Source of the DNA: Candidatus Poribacteria bacterium | GTDB lineage: Bacteria; Poribacteria; WGA-4E; UBA9662 | Direction of reading: 5' to 3' | NCBI GenBank assembly: GCA_012963885.1 | Contig: DTUY01000018.1 | Span: 1,933-65,932, forward strand | DNA: 64,000 bases | Program-made: the position numbers and the translations under genes | Notes under the pieces: generated by a model | The model's input: the letters and a program-made list of their open reading frames with translations, nothing else | The model's database searches: none | What the model was told of the DNA's origin: nothing | Part shown: positions 7,787-36,388 of the stretch, piece after piece | Layout: every line of letters begins with the position of its first letter | Numbering within the stretch: position 1 is the stretch's first letter

Positions 7787-8074
7787 TTCATCCAAAAGCT
7801 TTGAAGGGAAGGAGTAGGTCGGAAGGTCTTGATAGACAGAGAGGGAAATGCGAAGGCTGGAACGTTTCCTCAAGAAACCCCGATTGAACATCGTCCTGGA
7901 GCTGTCAGCCTGAAGCTTGTCGTTAGTTAAGTAGGGCTGGTCGGTTGATACCCGTAATCGTATTGAAATAAGAGCCTTTTTGGGTTTGTAACGCAATAAG
8001 GAATTGGAGTGGTACCGCGGTAAGGTTTTTGCCCTTCTCGTCTCCATCGTTTTGGAGCGGGCGGGGCTTTTTTA
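7787..8074 (+). promoter_or_regulatory. T-box riboswitch, isoleucine-type (AUC specifier), controlling ilvBNC
   Basis: The leader has the hallmarks of a T-box. Stem I carries AGTA (7813-7816) and the distal AGAGAG (7838-7843). The strand opposite AGTA reads GATTGAACATCGTCC and pairs through GGTCGG/CCGATT. The specifier triplet in that loop is ATC (7890-7892), an isoleucine codon. The near-invariant T-box bulge sequence TGGTACCGCGG is at 8010-8020. A GC-rich terminator hairpin plus T-run follows at 8031-8073. In the family, uncharged tRNA pairs with the specifier and the UGG of the bulge, stabilising the antiterminator. Here isoleucine starvation should therefore raise ilvBNC expression. Confidence 0.93.
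8031..8073 (+). terminator. T-box-controlled intrinsic terminator
   Basis: GCCCTTCTCGTCTCC pairs with GGAGCGGGCGGGGC (one bulge, one mismatch, some G-U pairs) around the loop ATCGTTTT, followed by TTTTTT. The 5' arm lies just after the TGGTACCGCGG element, as expected for a competing antiterminator. Confidence 0.85.
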
Positions 8075-8119
8075 TTCCGGATTCTATTCACAATCACTAT
8101 GGGGTATAGGAACATGCTA

Positions 8120-9835
8120 ATGCGAGGAGCGAATCTTCTTATTGAGAGCCTAAAGCGCGAGAATGTAGAATATATTTTCGGTCTTCAAGGGGGGGCCGCA
8201 ATGCCTATCTTTGATGCGCTCTACGATGCTGAAGGTATTAAGCTTATCACGATGCGGCATGAACAGGGAGCGGCACATGCTGCTGACGGGTATGCGCGTG
8301 CAACCGGTAAAGTTGGTGTAGCATTGGCGACCTCTGGTCCTGGTGCTACAAATCTTGTAACTGGAATTGCAACAGCTCACATGGATTCAATTCCTATGGT
8401 CGCAATTACCGGACAGGTTCCAACTCAATTAATCGGTAACGATGCATTTCAAGAATGTGATGTTCTAGGTGTAACACGTCCAATTTGCAAGCATAGCTAT
8501 CTGATTAAAGACAGTTCCGAGGTGCCGGAGGTTGTGGCGGAAGCTTTCCATATCGCTAGTACGGGGCGACCGGGGCCGGTTGTTATCGATTTTGCAAAGG
8601 ATGCACAGATTGCTGAGTCTGAATTCTATTATCCCGAACAAGTTGATTTGCGTAGTTACAGTCCGACTACCGAAGGACATCCGCGTCAGATTGCCAAGGC
8701 CGCTGAACTGATCAAGGCTGCTAAGCGCCCAATAATTTATGCTGGAGGCGGCGTTATACTCTCGAAAGCATCTGAAGAGTTGCGTGAATTGGCAATTAAT
8801 GCGCATATGCCGATTACTGTGACCTTGATGGGGCTGGGAGCATTTCCTGAAACTCATGAGCTGGCCATGGAAATGCCTGGTATGCACGGATCGTGTTGCG
8901 CCAACTACGCATTTACCGATGCGGATCTGGTGGTGGCAATCGGCGCTCGATTTGATGATCGGGTGACAGGAAAATTGGAGGTGTTTTCACCCAAGTCAAA
9001 AAAGATTCACATTGATATTGATCCATCTTGCATCGGAAAAAATGTTTGGGTCGATGTGCCGATTGTTGGGGATGCCAAAAATGTTTTACGCGAACTCAAC
9101 AAGCAAGTTGAAAGAAAAACGGATATCGATCCCTGGTTACGCCAGATTGATGAATGGAAAACGAAGTACCCATTCGAATACCGCCAAAAAGGCGATAAAA
9201 TTATGCCACAGTACGTTATTGAAGAAATCTATAACTTGTATCCGGACGCAATGGTTACTGCGGATGTCGGGCAACATCAGATGTGGGCTGCTCAATATTT
9301 CAAGTTTACAGAACCTCATCAATGGCTTAATTCTGGCGGTTTGGGAACGATGGGGTTCAGTCTGCCGGCGATGATAGGCGCTCAGATTGGCCGGCCGGAT
9401 AAAACTCAAGTTAATATCAACGGTGATGGTTCTTTCATCATGACGATTCAGGAACTTGTACCAGCAGTATCAATGAAACTGCCATTGAAGATCTTTATTA
9501 TCAATAACATGTATCTTGGTATGGTACGTCAGTGGCAAGAACTTTTCTTTAACAAGAGATATGCCGCTGTAGACTACCATGATAATCCTGATTTTGCTAA
9601 GCTTGCTGAAGCTTTTGGTGCCACGGGTATTCGGATTGAAAAAATTGAAGATGTTCGCCCCGCACTTGAACGGGCTAAGGAAATTGAGGATGGTCCAGTT
9701 GTTATCGATTTCATCGTTGACGAAGAAGAGAACGTTTTTCCCATGGTTCCATCGGGTAAGGGTTTGGGTGATTTGGTTCGAAACGAAGAAGAGGCGGGTA
9801 AGGGTTTGGGTGGTTTTATTCGAGGGTTAGCCTAG
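8120..9835 (+). CDS. ilvB: Acetolactate synthase large (catalytic) subunit
   Basis: This ThDP-dependent enzyme condenses pyruvate with pyruvate or 2-oxobutyrate in the first common step of valine, leucine and isoleucine synthesis. Visible marks are the N-terminal PYR domain with the catalytic Glu ('MRHEQGAAHAADGYA'), the FAD/central domain, and the C-terminal ThDP motif 'NGDGSFIMTIQEL...NNMYLGMV'. I chose the ATG at 8120 (MRGANLLIESLKRE) because AGGA lies eight bases upstream; in-frame ATGs at 8114 and 8099 have poorly placed or no ribosome sites. The extreme C-terminus carries a tandem duplicate ('GKGLGDLVR' then 'GKGLGGFIR'). Its stop overlaps the ilvN GTG start (TAGTG), indicating translational coupling. 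Confidence 0.95.
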   Translation: MRGANLLIESLKRENVEYIFGLQGGAAMPIFDALYDAEGIKLITMRHEQGAAHAADGYARATGKVGVALATSGPGATNLVTGIATAHMDSIPMVAITGQVPTQLIGNDAFQECDVLGVTRPICKHSYLIKDSSEVPEVVAEAFHIASTGRPGPVVIDFAKDAQIAESEFYYPEQVDLRSYSPTTEGHPRQIAKAAELIKAAKRPIIYAGGGVILSKASEELRELAINAHMPITVTLMGLGAFPETHELAMEMPGMHGSCCANYAFTDADLVVAIGARFDDRVTGKLEVFSPKSKKIHIDIDPSCIGKNVWVDVPIVGDAKNVLRELNKQVERKTDIDPWLRQIDEWKTKYPFEYRQKGDKIMPQYVIEEIYNLYPDAMVTADVGQHQMWAAQYFKFTEPHQWLNSGGLGTMGFSLPAMIGAQIGRPDKTQVNINGDGSFIMTIQELVPAVSMKLPLKIFIINNMYLGMVRQWQELFFNKRYAAVDYHDNPDFAKLAEAFGATGIRIEKIEDVRPALERAKEIEDGPVVIDFIVDEEENVFPMVPSGKGLGDLVRNEEEAGKGLGGFIRGLA

Positions 9836-10329
9836 TGGCTGAGGGAAGACACATTTTCTCTGTCTCGGTTGAAAACAAGTTCGGAGTTCTGGCCAGAGTG
9901 GCGGGCTTGTTTAGTGGTCGAGGGTTTAATATCGACAGTCTCTCAGTTGCTGAGACAGAGGATCCGAATACATCCCAGATGACGATTGTTACGCATGGTA
10001 ATGAGGCTATTATCGAACAGATTGAGAAGCAATTGAATAGGCTGATTGAGGTCATCAAAATTAAGGACATGACCAAAGAGAATCATGTCGAACGGGAGAT
10101 GATTCTTGTAAAGGTAGCGGTCGATACGTCCAAACGGGGCGAGGTACTGCAAATCGTCGATATCTTCCGCGCTCGGACAATTGATGTGGCTTCTGGGTCG
10201 TTAACAATCGAAATCACGGGTGATGAAAGCAAATTAAGTGCGATCACCGATATGCTAAGACCATATGGTATTCGTGAGCTTGTACGTACGGGTAAAGTCG
10301 CCATTATGCGCGGTACGGGGAAACAGTAA
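9835..10329 (+). CDS. ilvN: Acetolactate synthase small (regulatory) subunit
   Basis: The 164-residue regulatory partner of IlvB begins with an ACT domain ('RHIFSVSVENKFGVLARVAG', 'GRGFNIDSLSV') that binds the feedback inhibitor valine in this family. The C-terminal ALS small-subunit domain follows, with 'EREMILVKV' and 'ITGDESKL'. The start is GTG, sharing one base with the ilvB stop, and GAGG lies about nine bases upstream inside ilvB. It is the second gene of the T-box-controlled ilvBNC operon. Its length is normal for the long (IlvN/IlvH) form. Confidence 0.95.
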   Translation: MAEGRHIFSVSVENKFGVLARVAGLFSGRGFNIDSLSVAETEDPNTSQMTIVTHGNEAIIEQIEKQLNRLIEVIKIKDMTKENHVEREMILVKVAVDTSKRGEVLQIVDIFRARTIDVASGSLTIEITGDESKLSAITDMLRPYGIRELVRTGKVAIMRGTGKQ

Positions 10330-30996: not shown

Positions 30997-32190
30997 TCAA
31001 GTCCGGTACTCTGCGTTTATCTTGACGTAATCGTATGAATAGTCGCATGTCCAAAATGTTACACTAGTATGACCAGCGTGAAGGTCAATAGTGATGCTGG
31101 TAGTATCTTTATTTAGTTGATTTGTAGCTTTCTGTTCGTCGAATCCAGCATCAACCCCATTTTTCACGATTTGGCAGTCACCAATCCATACTTCGACATT
31201 TGACTGTTCAAATTCCGCCCCCGATTTGCCAATTGCCATCATAATTCGTCCCCAGTTGGCATCATTGGCAAAAACTGCCGTTTTGACAAGAGGCGATTCC
31301 GCGACCGCGCGTGCTGCGAGTGCTCCCTCATTTTCATTTCTAGCGTTATTGATGACAACCTCCAGCAGTTTTGTCGCACCTTCACCATCACGAGCGATCA
31401 TCTTTGCCAATTCGATACAGACAAAATCAAGAGCATTTTGAAAATCTTGGTGATGCGTTGTGATTTGAGGATTTTCGACAGTACCGTTGGCTAGAATCAA
31501 CACAGTGTCGTTTGTACTTGTATCTGAGTCAACTGTTACCCGATTAAACGATTTTCTGATAGCAGTTTGCAAAGTAGCTTGCAGGATCTCGGGTGAGATA
31601 CTCACGTTGGTAGTCAGAAAACTGAGCATGGTAGCCATGTTAGGCGCGATCATCCCGGACCCTTTGGCCATGCCGCCGATAATAATGGAATGTCCGTCGA
31701 TTTTGGTTTCGACTGCGACTTCCTTCGGGATAGTGTCCGTTGTCATAATTGCTTGGGCGGCGTCATGGCCGCCACCTTCATCTAGCGTTTGGACGGCAAG
31801 ATGAATTCCATTTTCAATTATATCCATTGGCAGCCGTTGACCGATGACACCCGTTGAACAGATAAGGACAGAATTTGAATTAATTCCTAAAGCTCCACCG
31901 GCTAGTTCCGCTGTCTGGTAAGCATCTTCCAAACCTTCCTGGCCAGTACATGCGTTGGCATTCTTGCTATTAATGACAATTGCATTTGCAACCTGATTCC
32001 TGATGTGATCTTGGCAAAGTGTTACTGGGGCTGCACAGACACGATTTTGTGTGAAAACACCAGCGGCTGTCGCCGTCGGGTCCGAGAGTATAATTGCAAA
32101 ATCCTTCTGATGGTTATCTTTAAGTCCAGCGTGTACACCAGCTGCTTTAAAACCTGGTGCCGCCGCGATACCTCCCTGAATTTGTTTCAT
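30997..32190 (-). CDS. argJ: Bifunctional ornithine acetyltransferase / N-acetylglutamate synthase
   Basis: The roughly 397-residue Ntn-like enzyme transfers the acetyl group from N-acetylornithine to glutamate, recycling acetyl in arginine synthesis. It self-cleaves before the catalytic Thr, seen here in 'GMIAPNMATMLSFL'. Other marks: 'ILICSTGVIG'-type sequence (here 'VLICSTGVIGQRLPM'), 'GGMAKGSGM' and 'NRVTVDSDTSTND'. I chose the ATG at 32190 (MKQIQGGIAAAPGFKAAG) because GAGGG lies six bases before it; an upstream in-frame ATG at 32217 lacks a site. Confidence 0.94.
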   Translation of the reverse strand: MKQIQGGIAAAPGFKAAGVHAGLKDNHQKDFAIILSDPTATAAGVFTQNRVCAAPVTLCQDHIRNQVANAIVINSKNANACTGQEGLEDAYQTAELAGGALGINSNSVLICSTGVIGQRLPMDIIENGIHLAVQTLDEGGGHDAAQAIMTTDTIPKEVAVETKIDGHSIIIGGMAKGSGMIAPNMATMLSFLTTNVSISPEILQATLQTAIRKSFNRVTVDSDTSTNDTVLILANGTVENPQITTHHQDFQNALDFVCIELAKMIARDGEGATKLLEVVINNARNENEGALAARAVAESPLVKTAVFANDANWGRIMMAIGKSGAEFEQSNVEVWIGDCQIVKNGVDAGFDEQKATNQLNKDTTSITIDLHAGHTSVTFWTCDYSYDYVKINAEYRT

Positions 32191-32282
32191 ATAAACCCTC
32201 AAATGACATAGATTCACTATATTATTCTACCATATCAATTAAAATTTATGATGTAACTTAACCGGAAGAAAGGAATGTGAAA

Positions 32283-33338
32283 TTATAGGAGGGGGAAAGA
32301 AAACGTTAAAAGGAAAGTAAGTCCTCTTTTAAAAGTATCGCTATCTTCGGAAAGCATTTTCTGTCCAAGGGGTTGTATCAAGTTGAATTGGACAACGGAT
32401 CTGTCCCAGAAGCTGACACTAGCACCGAAGAGTAGTGCATTCACTATCAAGCCTGTGTTCCGATCCCGCTCGCCATCCCAGTAGCCATAATGTTGGTACA
32501 AACCGGTATAATGCGTGTTTAGCGCCAATGAATTTGAGATGCGATATCGAACACCAAAGTTATAGTTAAGTTCGGTTGGTGCACGATAAGCTTTTCCATT
32601 TTCGTAGAACGGAAGACGGCCGGTAACATAACTGTGTAAAGCGAGCTTTCTCAGCAATTTTATGCTGTGCTGAAACTTTATTATTGGTACGAACGTACCA
32701 GTACCGAATTGAATGTGAAGATGCTTTTTACCCGCATCACCAAGTCTATATGGATCCTCTTCTATCTTGCCAATTGGCAGACTCATTCCTAAAGAAAAAA
32801 CCAATTTCTCTCCCAGACGAAGGAGGTTGCCTGAATAGTAATTAACACTAAACTCGAAGTCACTTAATCCAGTGTATGTTTCAGTTCGATGATGTATGTC
32901 GCGGTTTGCTAAAATAGCGTCTCGATTTTCTGGTGTTTGGTTGCGCCCCAAAAAATCAACCCGTGCCTTTTGGTTCTTAATATCGTATGGCAGGTCCAAT
33001 GACAGTGCCAAAGCGTTCCGCATGAAATACCGGATACCAAGCTCTATTCTGGTGAAATCGAGAGATACTTCGTGCCTGTGTTGGGGATGAATATGCTCAA
33101 TGACTTCCCCTTTTGGTCCCAGACCTCGATATTCGAAATGGCCTCCTCGAGAATCCGGACTTCTTAAAACGTTCAGGGAAAAATTCAGACGTTCAATTTT
33201 TGAGGCCGAACTGACCTCTCCCGTCTCCACGCGAGGAAAGACGGGGTTGCTTCAAGCGCCTCAGCTATCTTGTGCTTTAACACAAACTTGGCAGAACCAA
33301 AGAGCAGCTATGAACAGGAGAATGAAGGCGTTTTTCAT
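32283..33338 (-). CDS. Candidate double-selenocysteine outer-membrane barrel protein (two in-frame UGA codons)
   Basis: An ATG at 33338 overlaps the M56 stop (TAATG). It opens a signal peptide (MKNAFILLFIAALWFC...VKAQDS), then reads UGA-Gly-Ala-UGA (33263-33261 and 33254-33252) and continues in the same frame through 'SNPVFPRVETGEVSS' into the barrel. About 351 residues in total. The mature part has amphipathic strands ('FGTGTFVPIIKFQHSI', 'LNYNFGVRYRIS', 'LIVNALLFGASVSFWD') and ends 'LTFLLTFSFPLL', as in 'transporter'-type outer-membrane barrels. If UGA is read as Sec, the mature N-terminus is Ser-Sec-Gly-Ala-Sec, a redox/metal motif equivalent to CxxC. A GTG at 33230 would give a barrel without an export signal. 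A hairpin at 33220-33245 fits a SECIS position. The alternative is a gene broken by two nonsense codons. Confidence 0.65.
33220..33263 (-). promoter_or_regulatory. Candidate bacterial SECIS element with its two UGA codons
   Basis: Downstream of the UGAs the minus strand forms CCCGTCT / AGACGGG (perfect 7 bp, 33245-33220). The inner TTCC-TCGCGT-GG can add two C-G pairs with bulged U residues. The inner loop lies about 17 bases after the second UGA and about 26 after the first. Known bacterial SECIS loops lie roughly in that range. The loop sequence does not obviously match the E. coli fdhF consensus, so this is a structural inference. Confidence 0.45.
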
Positions 33339-34267
33339 TAGTGACTGTTTCCTTTCTGGTAACATGATCGGTAGTTAAAGTTACAAAATTCTGTTTCACA
33401 CTCTTTTTCATTTAGAATTGGCCGTTCTTCTGAAAATAGGACTCCAGCAGAAATTGAAATTGCAAAAGCAAACGATAGAGCTAAAGAAAATGTGAATTTT
33501 GATTCTTTTTCTGTTTCATTGCTATTAATTAAGGATTCAATTCTATCAATCAAGTCACCTTGATTGACAGAAACGAACATGAATTTTTGAACTTGGTTTC
33601 TTACCCGGACAAGTTTTATTAAAGCCTTGGAAAGTTCCAGTGGTGAACTCCCACAGCGTGTCGCAAATTGATCCGCTGCTTTTTCACTTGATATCTGAAA
33701 GTTTCTTTTGAGATTTCGACAAACAGGTAAGAAAAACATAGAATCGCTTAAAAAATTAATTATCAGGTTTTTTAGAGTGTCGAACTGACGACAATGGTAT
33801 ACTTCATGCCTAAGAACAGCCTGAATTTCTTCCGTCGTCATGAGCTGAATTAATCCGGTTGACAGATAAATTCTGGGGAGAAACACTCCAGCAGAGAACG
33901 CCCAACAGATAGTATCATTTCGAAAAACATGGATGCGGTTGGTTGGGAAATTAACTGACAATCCAAGGGGTAGTGAGTTGACAATTGAAAGCTGGCTTAA
34001 AAACTTCTGCGTTTTGTAGAGATGTGCTATTACTCGAATAGTGGCAAAAATGATTCCAACAACCATAGCCGCAATGCTCATCCAGATTGGGATTTTGTAT
34101 GCTGAGAAATTACAAACTTGAAAACAAATAATCGAATCACCACATGAATGCAGTGTTTTGGTGGTTACGATAGTTAACTGCAATAGCCCAGCGAATAGTA
34201 TGAAGATGAAGATCACGCCCCAGAAACTGGCATCACTTTTTCTTTTATGGTGAATAAAGCTACTCAT
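33338..34267 (-). CDS. BlaR1/MecR1-like M56 family membrane metallopeptidase
   Basis: 309 residues with about four hydrophobic segments. The zinc motif 'VLRHEVYHCRQFDTLKN' (HExxH) and 'SSEKAADQFA' are typical of M56 sensor proteases that cleave BlaI-type repressors. The penicillin-binding sensor domain of BlaR1 is absent. Instead, after the last membrane segment, a short Cys-rich tail appears ('NEKECETEFCNFNYRSC'), which could sense metal or redox state; that is inference. Its start overlaps the repressor gene by eight bases, and its stop overlaps the next ATG (TAATG). Confidence 0.85.
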   Translation of the reverse strand: MSSFIHHKRKSDASFWGVIFIFILFAGLLQLTIVTTKTLHSCGDSIICFQVCNFSAYKIPIWMSIAAMVVGIIFATIRVIAHLYKTQKFLSQLSIVNSLPLGLSVNFPTNRIHVFRNDTICWAFSAGVFLPRIYLSTGLIQLMTTEEIQAVLRHEVYHCRQFDTLKNLIINFLSDSMFFLPVCRNLKRNFQISSEKAADQFATRCGSSPLELSKALIKLVRVRNQVQKFMFVSVNQGDLIDRIESLINSNETEKESKFTFSLALSFAFAISISAGVLFSEERPILNEKECETEFCNFNYRSCYQKGNSH

Positions 34268-34697
34268 CCGAATCTTTTTCCTTCAGCTGGCGGCGTTTTT
34301 GCTCAATCGCATACTCAAGTTCCTCAATTGATTGCGGATCATCTTGGCTAAGGAGATTTACAATAGCTGAAATCGCGTTCGAGCGGGAAATAGACAATGC
34401 GCTTTTTATGGCCTGCTGACAAGCAAGATGTTTGAACTCTTCACGGCTAAGAACAGCAGAAAAGTGGAAAACTCCCGCCTTTTTTTTCTTACCTAATAGT
34501 CCCTTTTTGACCATGCGGTTCAATACAGTCAAAATGGTGTGATAGGCATTCTGGCGTTTCAGGGAAACAGCATCGAAGATTTGCCGTCCAGTAGCTTCAT
34601 CACTCTCCCAGAGATAGTTTAGTAAGTCTTGCTCCAGATGACCAAGTACTTGGTGGAGTCCCTTATTCTGTGTTGTGAGTCGGTTGATCAATGTCAT
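34260..34697 (-). CDS. BlaI/MecI/CopY family transcriptional repressor
   Basis: 145 residues. The winged-helix DNA-binding domain covers about 15-90 ('QDLLNYLWESDEATGRQIFD', 'NAYHTILTVLNRMVKKGLL'), followed by a dimerisation/cleavage region. Family members bind TACA-n-TGTA-type palindromes and are inactivated by an M56 protease or by copper. The next gene is such a protease and the operon promoter contains a TACA/TGTA palindrome (35491-35509), so autoregulation is very likely. It follows the TlpA gene by 30 bases. Confidence 0.88.
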   Translation of the reverse strand: MTLINRLTTQNKGLHQVLGHLEQDLLNYLWESDEATGRQIFDAVSLKRQNAYHTILTVLNRMVKKGLLGKKKKAGVFHFSAVLSREEFKHLACQQAIKSALSISRSNAISAIVNLLSQDDPQSIEELEYAIEQKRRQLKEKDSDE

Positions 34698-34727
34698 TTT
34701 GCCTTAAGTTAAGTGCTAATAATCGGT

Positions 34728-35450
34728 CTATTTTTTATTAAGCAAGTTTGAAACGTGTTTTTCCACTTCTTGGTGATTAGTTTTGCCTGTCCATTGCGCA
34801 ACGATTTGTTTTTCTGTATTGATCAAAAACATCGTTGGAACTACTTTTAAGTTAAAAGATTTAAACGCTGAATCTTTTTTTGCATCATGTAAAATTGGGT
34901 AAGAAATGTTCTTCTCTTTGATAAAATTTTTAATTTTTTTCCTGATGTCTTTGCCTTGATCAATAGAGATTCCTAGCACAACAAACTTTTTGCTTTTCTT
35001 ATGCTTTTTATTTAGTTTCTGGAGTTCGGGCATCATTTCTACACATGGAATACACCAAGTTGCCCAAAAGTCAATTAGTACTACCTTACCCTTGTAGTTT
35101 TTCAGGGTTATATCTTTACCCTTAAGATTCTCAACAACGAAATCGGGAGCAGGACGTGGAATAATCGGAGGAAGATAGGCTGTAGGATTGTCATCAAATT
35201 GTTCTTTGCACTTTTGGCAGCAGAAGTAATAGGTTTTACCTTCGTATTTTCTCCAAGCTCCGACTTCAACGGGAGTTGTATCACCTTGACTTGAGCGAAT
35301 TGTGCATGGAGCTTCTTCGGGGATTTTTCCAACTTCCCCCGCTTGTATTATGTTCAGAAAACTGAGATGCACCAAGATTAGAAACAAATAGGTTCCCATG
35401 TATTGCTTTATCCTTCTCATAGCAGGTAGCAAAAAAACCAACCAATTCAA
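34728..35450 (-). CDS. Secreted TlpA-like thioredoxin with N-terminal YHS/TRASH-like domain
   Basis: About 240 residues. A hydrophobic export segment ('GTYLFLILVHLSFLNIIQA') is followed by a YHS/TRASH-like metal-binding module ('EGKTYYFCCQKCKEQFDDNP') at about 55-95. A thioredoxin/AhpC-TSA fold follows with redox motif 'WATWCIPCVEMMPEL' and cis-Pro 'LKVVPTMFLI'. It should be a periplasmic thiol-disulfide reductase linked to a metal-binding domain. I prefer a TTG start at 35450, nine bases after AAGGAG. The in-frame ATG at 35480 would lie almost at the predicted transcription start. ATGs at 35420 and 35399 are also possible. It is the first gene of the BlaI-controlled operon. Confidence 0.82.
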   Translation of the reverse strand: MNWLVFLLPAMRRIKQYMGTYLFLILVHLSFLNIIQAGEVGKIPEEAPCTIRSSQGDTTPVEVGAWRKYEGKTYYFCCQKCKEQFDDNPTAYLPPIIPRPAPDFVVENLKGKDITLKNYKGKVVLIDFWATWCIPCVEMMPELQKLNKKHKKSKKFVVLGISIDQGKDIRKKIKNFIKEKNISYPILHDAKKDSAFKSFNLKVVPTMFLINTEKQIVAQWTGKTNHQEVEKHVSNLLNKK

Positions 35451-35485
35451 TTTGGATTTCTCCTTAAGTATAGATTCCATAGGTA

Positions 35486-35514
35486 ATTGTATTTTACAGA
35501 CTGTAAAATGTCAA
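35486..35514 (-). promoter_or_regulatory. Operon promoter with BlaI-type operator filling the spacer
   Basis: On the minus strand TTGACA (35514-35509), a 17-base spacer, and TACAAT (35491-35486). The spacer sits within a perfect palindrome, ATTTTACAG-A-CTGTAAAAT (35491-35509 as read on the plus strand). TACA/TGTA half-sites are the known BlaI/MecI/CopY pattern, so repressor binding would block RNA polymerase directly. Confidence 0.85.
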
Positions 35515-35761
35515 GTGGAATTTGGCGGTACTTTATGGTATGTGACCGTAAGATATATGGCTGATTGTTGTTAAAATTATTTGCTGAATACATTGTTATA
35601 GGTTGAGTTATAAGATTAAATGGTTGGCAAACATGATAAAATTCGAGGTATACTTAACTAAGTTGCAATCGTTCTTACTTGTGAGTGTACCGAAAATTGA
35701 AAAAAGAAAAAAGGTTTTAATTATAAGTTTAGTTCCTTGATTATAAGAAATATCGAGCCAA

Positions 35762-36388
35762 GTGATAAATATTAAATTGATTGCCATTGTGTTTCTTGTC
35801 TTATTTGCTTTTTTTGCTTTGATACAAATTGAATCAATTGCAGGTCTTAATCCAATCCTTTACTCGATGGCTGCCTCAATTCGTTATCTAGTAACGTTGG
35901 TGTTTCAACTTCAGACGACATCTGAGAATCAAGTTCTTCTCAAGGGTGAGCATCAATTCCTAAGTCCAACTGACGAAACTAAGGTTGTTCCTTCTACAGT
36001 ACCCGCGGCCAAATATAAGCAGCGACTGGATCAAATGCGTGAATCTGGACCTAGCAACAAAGACGTCAATCTTGACTTTTTATTTAATGCGATTGAGTCC
36101 GAACTAACCCATCCTGCAACAGCAAATGGAGATGAAGAAATTATCGAGGTTCTAGGTCTCGCCGTCGAACTAGAGGATCCAATTACTGATCTGTTTCTGG
36201 AAACTGAATGGTACGATACTGGATTTAATTTTGACGATGTCTATTACGATGAGTTTTGGCAAGCTGAGTTGGAAACGAGCAGTGTACCAACTAATGATGA
36301 CTTTGAGTTGAATCAGATTGAGGGATTGCTTGAGGAATTTCCTGACCCCTCAGAAATTAATCAGCTAGATGTTTTCGATCAGAAATGA
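35762..36388 (+). CDS. Hypothetical membrane-anchored acidic protein
   Basis: 208 residues, family not recognised. An N-terminal hydrophobic segment (residues 5-28) suggests a signal anchor. The rest is hydrophilic and strongly acidic towards the C-terminus ('DTGFNFDDVYYDEFWQAELE', 'LLEEFPDPSEINQLD'). The start is GTG without a good ribosome site, and TTG at 35777 is an alternative. The thiD ATG follows only three bases after its stop, so they are probably co-transcribed, but nothing in the sequence ties it to thiamine synthesis. The 246 bases upstream hold no other gene. Confidence 0.6.
   Translation: MINIKLIAIVFLVLFAFFALIQIESIAGLNPILYSMAASIRYLVTLVFQLQTTSENQVLLKGEHQFLSPTDETKVVPSTVPAAKYKQRLDQMRESGPSNKDVNLDFLFNAIESELTHPATANGDEEIIEVLGLAVELEDPITDLFLETEWYDTGFNFDDVYYDEFWQAELETSSVPTNDDFELNQIEGLLEEFPDPSEINQLDVFDQK

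Follow-up and report, generated by a model that had tools for sequence, protein, structure and literature searches.

A predicted BlaI/M56-controlled envelope operon encoding a thioredoxin and a putative selenoprotein outer-membrane barrel in Candidatus Poribacteria

Introduction

The closest described counterparts of the operon reported here are BlaI-BlaR1 and MecI-MecR1 of Staphylococcus aureus, a type of switch familiar from penicillin resistance, in which a PF03965 repressor gene is followed by an overlapping M56 protease gene and the promoter carries a palindrome. In BlaR1, the first extracellular loop (EL1) and the C-terminal sensor domain jointly pass on the signal (PMC9834060). The CopR/CopY repressors belong to the same superfamily and are defined by C-terminal CXC metal motifs, and the operators of BlaI and CopY are TACA/TGTA palindromes (PMC7253601). 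The operon lies on the minus strand (35514-32283) of a 64,000-nucleotide stretch (the window; part of contig DTUY01000018.1) in the 6.84-Mb assembly of an uncultured, sponge-type Candidatus Poribacteria bacterium, where it is contig C18 of our genome G000; G001 is its congener and the sole other member of the genus. A near-consensus promoter is followed by genes for a thioredoxin, a BlaI repressor, an M56 protease and a barrel protein with in-frame UGA codons, and we consider that the operon is, on balance, probably a self-regulated system that protects the envelope in response to a thiophilic signal, for which copper or another soft metal is the likeliest candidate.

The operon shares the gene order, gene overlap and promoter palindrome of the staphylococcal systems, and BlaR1 is the best structural match of its protease, whereas this M56 protein carries two short segments of three cysteines each (Cys3) instead of a penicillin-binding sensor, and the output is a thioredoxin and a predicted selenoprotein barrel. 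It also has the TACA/TGTA-type palindrome of CopR/CopY, and the CopY_TcrY profile scores slightly ahead of the BlaI profile on its repressor, but the window has an M56 protease in place of direct metal sensing. The 12-strand channels of the COG4313/FapF type resemble the barrel in fold at an identity of only about 10-12%, and we know of no selenocysteine (Sec)/Cys pair or His set described in them. The copper outer-membrane protein PcoB is likewise a copper-operon-linked barrel, but its fold match (Z 13.2, root-mean-square deviation (rmsd) 4.0, 192 residues) is far below the best ones. Barrels with in-frame Sec have been described among outer-membrane selenoproteins (the MtrB/PioB-type GSU2204 family NF041027 and the TonB-dependent receptor NF049945; PMC13188914), from which the window barrel differs in size, fold match and motif, a UxxU pair right after the signal peptide.

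Operon layout and a palindrome in the promoter spacer

The four genes occur in the order given in an earlier note on this DNA, and their intergenic spacing is 30, -8 and -1 nt. They encode, all on the minus strand, a predicted exported thioredoxin with a YHS/TRASH domain and a TlpA/ResA-like part bearing WCIPC (34728..35480), a BlaI/MecI/CopY-family repressor of 145 amino acids that starts 30 nt downstream of the thioredoxin gene (34260..34697), a BlaR1-like M56 membrane protease of 309 amino acids with an 8-nt overlap with BlaI (33338..34267), and a putative selenoprotein outer-membrane barrel of 351 amino acids when TGA is read as Sec (32283..33338). The M56 stop codon and the barrel ATG share one base (TAATG). 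The view that this is one operon under BlaI/M56 repressor-protease control is well supported by this anatomy. A beta-lactam function, already denied in the earlier note, is ruled out, because M56 has no penicillin-binding sensor domain and the operon has no beta-lactamase gene.

The best promoter-like site in 31800-35900 begins with a TTGACA -35 box (6/6; 35509..35514, minus strand), which is the same in G001 and whose first base coincides with the upper limit of the earlier note, 35514. The -10 box is TACAAT (35486..35491, minus strand; TATGAT in G001), and the whole promoter, TTGACA-17 nt-TACAAT, matches the consensus at 11/12 positions. The sequences are TTGACA-TTTTACAGTCTGTAAAA-TACAAT in G000 and TTGACA-TTTTACGTGTCGTAAAA-TATGAT in G001. 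A perfect 17-bp palindrome, TTTTACA-GTC-TGTAAAA (35492..35508, minus strand; 19 bp with flanks, ATTTTACAGTCTGTAAAAT, 35491-35509), fills the spacer. The same spacer in G001 holds TTTTACG-TGT-CGTAAAA, which differs by a paired A/T to G/C change, and in both members of the genus the palindrome occupies the whole 17 bp. All 12 bases of the outer arms agree between the two genomes, while identity over the whole promoter (22/29) is no better than over the upstream flank (107/145).

The pattern TTTTACN5GTAAAA has a single site in each of G000 and G001, each at the operon promoter. A reversed-pattern control likewise gives one site per genome, so that the evidence lies in the position of the palindrome and not in its count. 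With no further site elsewhere in G000 or G001, the operon is the only predicted target of the palindrome; BlaI is missing from the vicinity of the site in G002. As a regulon motif the palindrome was rejected, since TTTACANNNTGTAAA, the looser pattern, gave one other G000 site, at an unrelated locus (L222). The window palindrome contains TACA-N3-TGTA; it does not fit the CopR/CopY operator RNYKACANNYGTMRNY, being one base longer in the centre, and only the half-sites are similar. We propose the 17-bp palindrome as a candidate BlaI operator, to which the repressor would bind. The predicted transcription start coincides with the thioredoxin ATG at 35480, and the thioredoxin start therefore probably lies downstream, for example at a TTG at codon 11 after AAGGAG.

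The repressor and the M56 protease

The BlaI protein belongs to the PF03965 (Penicillinase_R) family (6e-21, 75.4 bits against a curated cut-off of 22.6) and is about 79% identical to its G001 counterpart. Its NCBIfam scores for CopY_TcrY (7.5e-11, 42 bits against a cut-off of 122) and BlaI (6.3e-9) are both far under the cut-offs. No CXC metal motif is present in its sequence, which rules out a CopY-type direct metal repressor, so that metal sensing, if any, must fall to M56.

The M56 protein belongs to PF05569 (3.5e-15, 56.4 bits against a cut-off of 31) and scores only 26 bits on NCBIfam blaR1_generic (cut-off 400). Three transmembrane (TM) segments are predicted (17-35, 59-77 and 260-278), and the catalytic HEVYH (H154, E155, H158) together with E195 is invariant across 19 M56 sequences, including distant ones. 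Pfam finds no penicillin-binding sensor domain in the protein, which ends about 30 residues past TM3, and the Cys-rich tail noted earlier is present as C290, C295 and C302. A second Cys3 segment, which the earlier note did not mention, forms an EL1-like loop (C42, C48, C52), and all six Cys are kept in G001. By comparison with the BlaR1 topology, both segments probably lie outside the membrane. The two segments sit where BlaR1 has its sensor, which supports the idea that a Cys-based sensor replaces the penicillin-binding domain. Structure prediction, which the earlier note had proposed for the tail, gave an M56 model whose best match in the PDB is BlaR1 8exp, with BlaR1 structures as the top matches; the Cys segments were modelled at low confidence. 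In its operation the switch would resemble BlaR1-BlaI signalling that has acquired a different input. The two proteins are members of the BlaI and M56 families, and neither the BlaR1 sensor nor CopY membership applies.

The barrel as a putative selenoprotein

The barrel protein begins with a signal peptide, followed by QDS-U-GA-U-SNP and then the strands, where U stands for the in-frame TGAs at codon 26 (33261..33263, minus strand) and codon 29 (33252..33254, minus strand). Relatives of the barrel gene come from Candidatus Poribacteria metagenome-assembled genomes (MAGs). Homologues occur in 52/58 relatives, and most keep one or two in-frame TGAs here, indicating that the UGAs pointed out in the earlier note are not due to chance. 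Before duplicate removal, the motif reads UGAU in 81, CPAU in 37, CSAU in 1 and UPAU in 1 of the 120 sequences. The first position is UGA or Cys; the second is TGA in every read (120/120) and in 91/91 non-redundant loci. In a tree built without the motif, the CPAU sequences form one clade (100/100) and the CSAU sequence falls inside the genus of the window, so that Cys has taken the place of the first-position Sec on at least two occasions. Codon diversity at the conserved residues 30-52 is 0.26, compared with 0.61 over the remainder of the gene, and none of 20,000 permutations was as low, which points to a constraint at the RNA level. A 7-bp hairpin lies downstream of the UGAs (GAGGUC-AGUUC-GGCCUC, 33202..33218, minus strand; apical loop about 39-40 nt past the second UGA), and its stem is conserved with changes on both sides. 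The published model of the bacterial selenocysteine insertion sequence (bSECIS) places a stem-loop 16-37 nt downstream of the UGA and calls for G within the first two nucleotides of the loop; the stem and the loop AGUU/GGUU agree with the model in form. No credible Rfam match was found for this region.

On contig C160, the genome itself encodes SelB (359 bits) with a tRNA-Sec (70 bits) next to it. The tRNA-Sec is above the cut-off in 54/58 relatives, among them genomes without the barrel, and a contrast between presence and absence of the Sec machinery is therefore impossible. That the in-frame UGAs encode Sec is strongly supported by their conservation, and Sec would be inserted at these codons. 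The window protein has no match in Pfam and no significant match in NCBIfam 20, and we recognised no entry for it in the 2026 catalogue of 119 selenoprotein families (PMC13188914). Judged from its 91 non-redundant loci, the barrel is a phylum-wide, previously uncatalogued family of predicted selenoproteins. The most distant relative found is a divergent UPAU barrel in a marine MAG (L152). A pattern search of viral contigs gave 17 matches, with no barrel relative among them, and literature on Poribacteria with selenocysteine, or on BlaI/M56 with copper, yielded nothing relevant by title and abstract.

The barrel model (predicted local distance difference test, pLDDT, 76.9; predicted template modelling score, pTM, 0.76) has about 12 strands. 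Nearest to it in fold are the COG4313 channel 4rl8, at Z 25.1 with an rmsd of 2.8 over 253 residues, and FapF, at Z 23.5. The sequence has no match among solved structures, and PF13557 (Phenol_MetA_deg) is found weakly in 7/22 members (best 6.3e-5), the window protein not being one of them. Seven His are invariant in 22 barrel sequences (H67, H87, H89, H149, H150, H206 and H208), and the DSSP string of the model puts them near strand ends, apparently all on the same face of the barrel. In the model, a flexible U26/U29 segment precedes the barrel.

Conservation of the cluster and neighbours of the barrel genes

The earlier note had suggested a survey of the four-gene order. Phylum-wide conservation of this order is rejected by the neighbourhood survey: the order is unconserved beyond the genus, and the barrel alone is phylum-wide. 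In G001, the thioredoxin gene has been largely lost to an internal deletion that spared 5' and 3' remnants; because both ends are left, the four-gene form is likely ancestral in the genus.

We divided the barrel loci into class A, with Sec at the first position (61 non-redundant loci), and class B, with Cys (30 loci). An aldo-keto reductase gene lies upstream in 40/61 class A loci and an ABC substrate-binding protein gene downstream in 29/61. The whole conserved cassette, seen at L047, L053, L059 and other UGAU loci, runs from aldo-keto reductase through UGAU barrel, ABC peptide-type binding protein and permease to a small membrane protein. In class B, a small Cys-rich secreted protein is encoded upstream in 29/30 loci, and YHS, OEP and CusB genes follow downstream in 19/30, with 4.5 kb of downstream sequence available for 25/30. 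By Pfam, these neighbours are YHS (at 29.9 bits, slightly short of the 30.3 cut-off), OEP, and a CusB protein bearing four heavy-metal binding domains (HMBD); the window locus has no CusB, OEP or HMBD genes. These CPAU neighbourhoods give the metal idea independent support at the level of gene context. A second barrel copy in the own genome (G000:C357, L040) is 87% identical, reads CSAU and stands beside a class-B-like Cys-rich protein and a degraded M56 3' end. It groups with the copy of G001 and may be a paralogue or lie on a contaminating contig.

The thioredoxin matches PF04945 (YHS/TRASH, 6.6e-10), AhpC-TSA (1.7e-24) and ResA (1.3e-28), and its homologue in G002 (49%) is a stand-alone gene. 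A link between the BlaI-M56 switch and thioredoxins recurs in the phylum. M56 proteins of 776-1096 amino acids are fused to an AhpC/TlpA-type thioredoxin at L219, L220, L221, L223 and L224, with a BlaI-like gene upstream, and BlaI genes precede such M56-TlpA fusion genes in G003, G006, G009 and G011. Separately, TlpA-like thioredoxins with one in-frame TGA (G000:C52:19602-19964, G002:C321:25253-25663 and others) are probably further selenoproteins.

Discussion

The earlier proposal of an envelope system under BlaI/M56 control, with a Cys-based sensor and metal, thiol or selenium chemistry, gains from the promoter-palindrome and M56 anatomy and from the barrel paralogues in copper operons. In the mechanism that we propose, BlaI dimers on the spacer palindrome would keep RNA polymerase off the promoter when there is no signal. 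The signal would be detected on the periplasmic side by the EL1-equivalent Cys3 loop of M56 together with its short C-terminal Cys3 tail, and bridging or oxidation of these thiols would activate the cytoplasmic HEXXH protease, which would then cleave BlaI and allow expression of the whole operon, BlaI and M56 included. Two effectors would follow: the periplasmic YHS/TRASH-TlpA thioredoxin, which may bind metal and supply electrons, and the outer-membrane 12-strand channel, whose mature N-terminus would place the UxxU Sec pair on the periplasmic side and which has the invariant His near its strand ends. The Sec residues may bind metal or pass it on, with the thioredoxin contacting the barrel and keeping the diselenide reduced. 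The most specific form of this model, a selenium-based outer-membrane metal channel with UxxU as a diselenide/metal-binding pair at its periplasmic mouth and a BlaI-M56 switch that senses through two facing Cys triads, is put forward tentatively, as plausible but short of probable.

We regard as unlikely, though worth serious attention, an operon for redox stress (disulfide, oxidant or selenium), in which disulfides arise within the M56 Cys segments, thiols of the envelope are repaired by the thioredoxin and UxxU gives the channel a site resembling that of a peroxidase or reductase. It would account for a TlpA/ResA-like thioredoxin with WCIPC, for the M56-TlpA fusions elsewhere in the phylum and for the aldo-keto reductase beside most UGAU paralogues, and most uncharacterised selenoproteins are probably redox proteins according to a review (PMC13188914). 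The YHS/TRASH domain within the thioredoxin, the CusB, OEP and YHS genes beside the CPAU paralogues and the seven invariant His point instead to metal, which we favour, short of proof, over pure redox chemistry. The same His set, and the occurrence of 29/30 CPAU/CSAU copies beside a Cys-rich protein with 19 in efflux operons, also count against a general porin-like or import channel in which UxxU serves in assembly or gating, as a lock or plug made of a diselenide, with the thioredoxin acting as isomerase and the class B metal context being incidental. This channel seems to us quite improbable, even with a fold nearest to FapF and the COG4313 channel, UGAU copies that adjoin an ABC substrate-binding protein and permease, and a flexible U26/U29 segment ahead of the barrel. 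Hardly credible is the reading of the UGAs as true stops, with the gene a relic or read from an internal GTG at 33230: that GTG does open a frame of 315 amino acids, but upstream of it lie a signal peptide and an SxxAxSNP motif that are conserved in frame throughout the phylum, and the invariable codon-29 TGA, the RNA-level constraint and the Sec machinery speak for translation through the UGAs.

Several observations weigh against the metal-responsive selenoprotein operon that we prefer. BlaI carries no CXC motif, and BlaI and M56 adjoin the barrel only in G000 and G001 in the barrel-locus survey; the congener has lost its thioredoxin gene, so that the thioredoxin is dispensable there. Most UGAU barrels are flanked by an aldo-keto reductase on one side and an ABC transporter on the other, and none of the 61 class A loci has YHS, OEP or CusB neighbours, so the UGAU form, which the window carries, has no metal-gene association of its own. 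The hairpin loop lies mostly 40-43 nt past the second UGA (90 sequences), beyond the range of the bSECIS model. The palindrome has a centre of 3 nt where the CopY consensus has 2 nt, and in G001 its half-sites are TACG/CGTA. Low model confidence in the M56 Cys segments leaves contact between them conjectural.

If the proposed switch is true, it would, to our knowledge, be the first case of a BlaR1-type transducer that responds to a metal or thiol, and of a selenoprotein controlled by BlaI. A transducer of this type with a non-beta-lactam input is made testable here, since the sensor is narrowed to six Cys and the operator to 17 bp. The barrel would add a selenoprotein family, absent from the catalogue and from NCBIfam 20, to a fold class in which Sec is rare, and annotation pipelines would lose its N-terminus. 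The operon would also tie selenium utilisation to the handling of copper in the envelopes of sponge-associated bacteria.

Other features of the window

A divergently oriented gene (35762-36388, plus strand) next to the operon encodes an acidic secreted or anchored protein of 208 amino acids with no Pfam match, and it is kept beside the operon in G001. The window also contains a T-box leader, an element known chiefly from Firmicutes and related bacteria (7792-8048, plus strand; Rfam RF00230, 104 bits), upstream of the acetolactate synthase genes ilvB (8099-9835) and ilvN (9835-10329), which are followed by a ketol-acid reductoisomerase gene.

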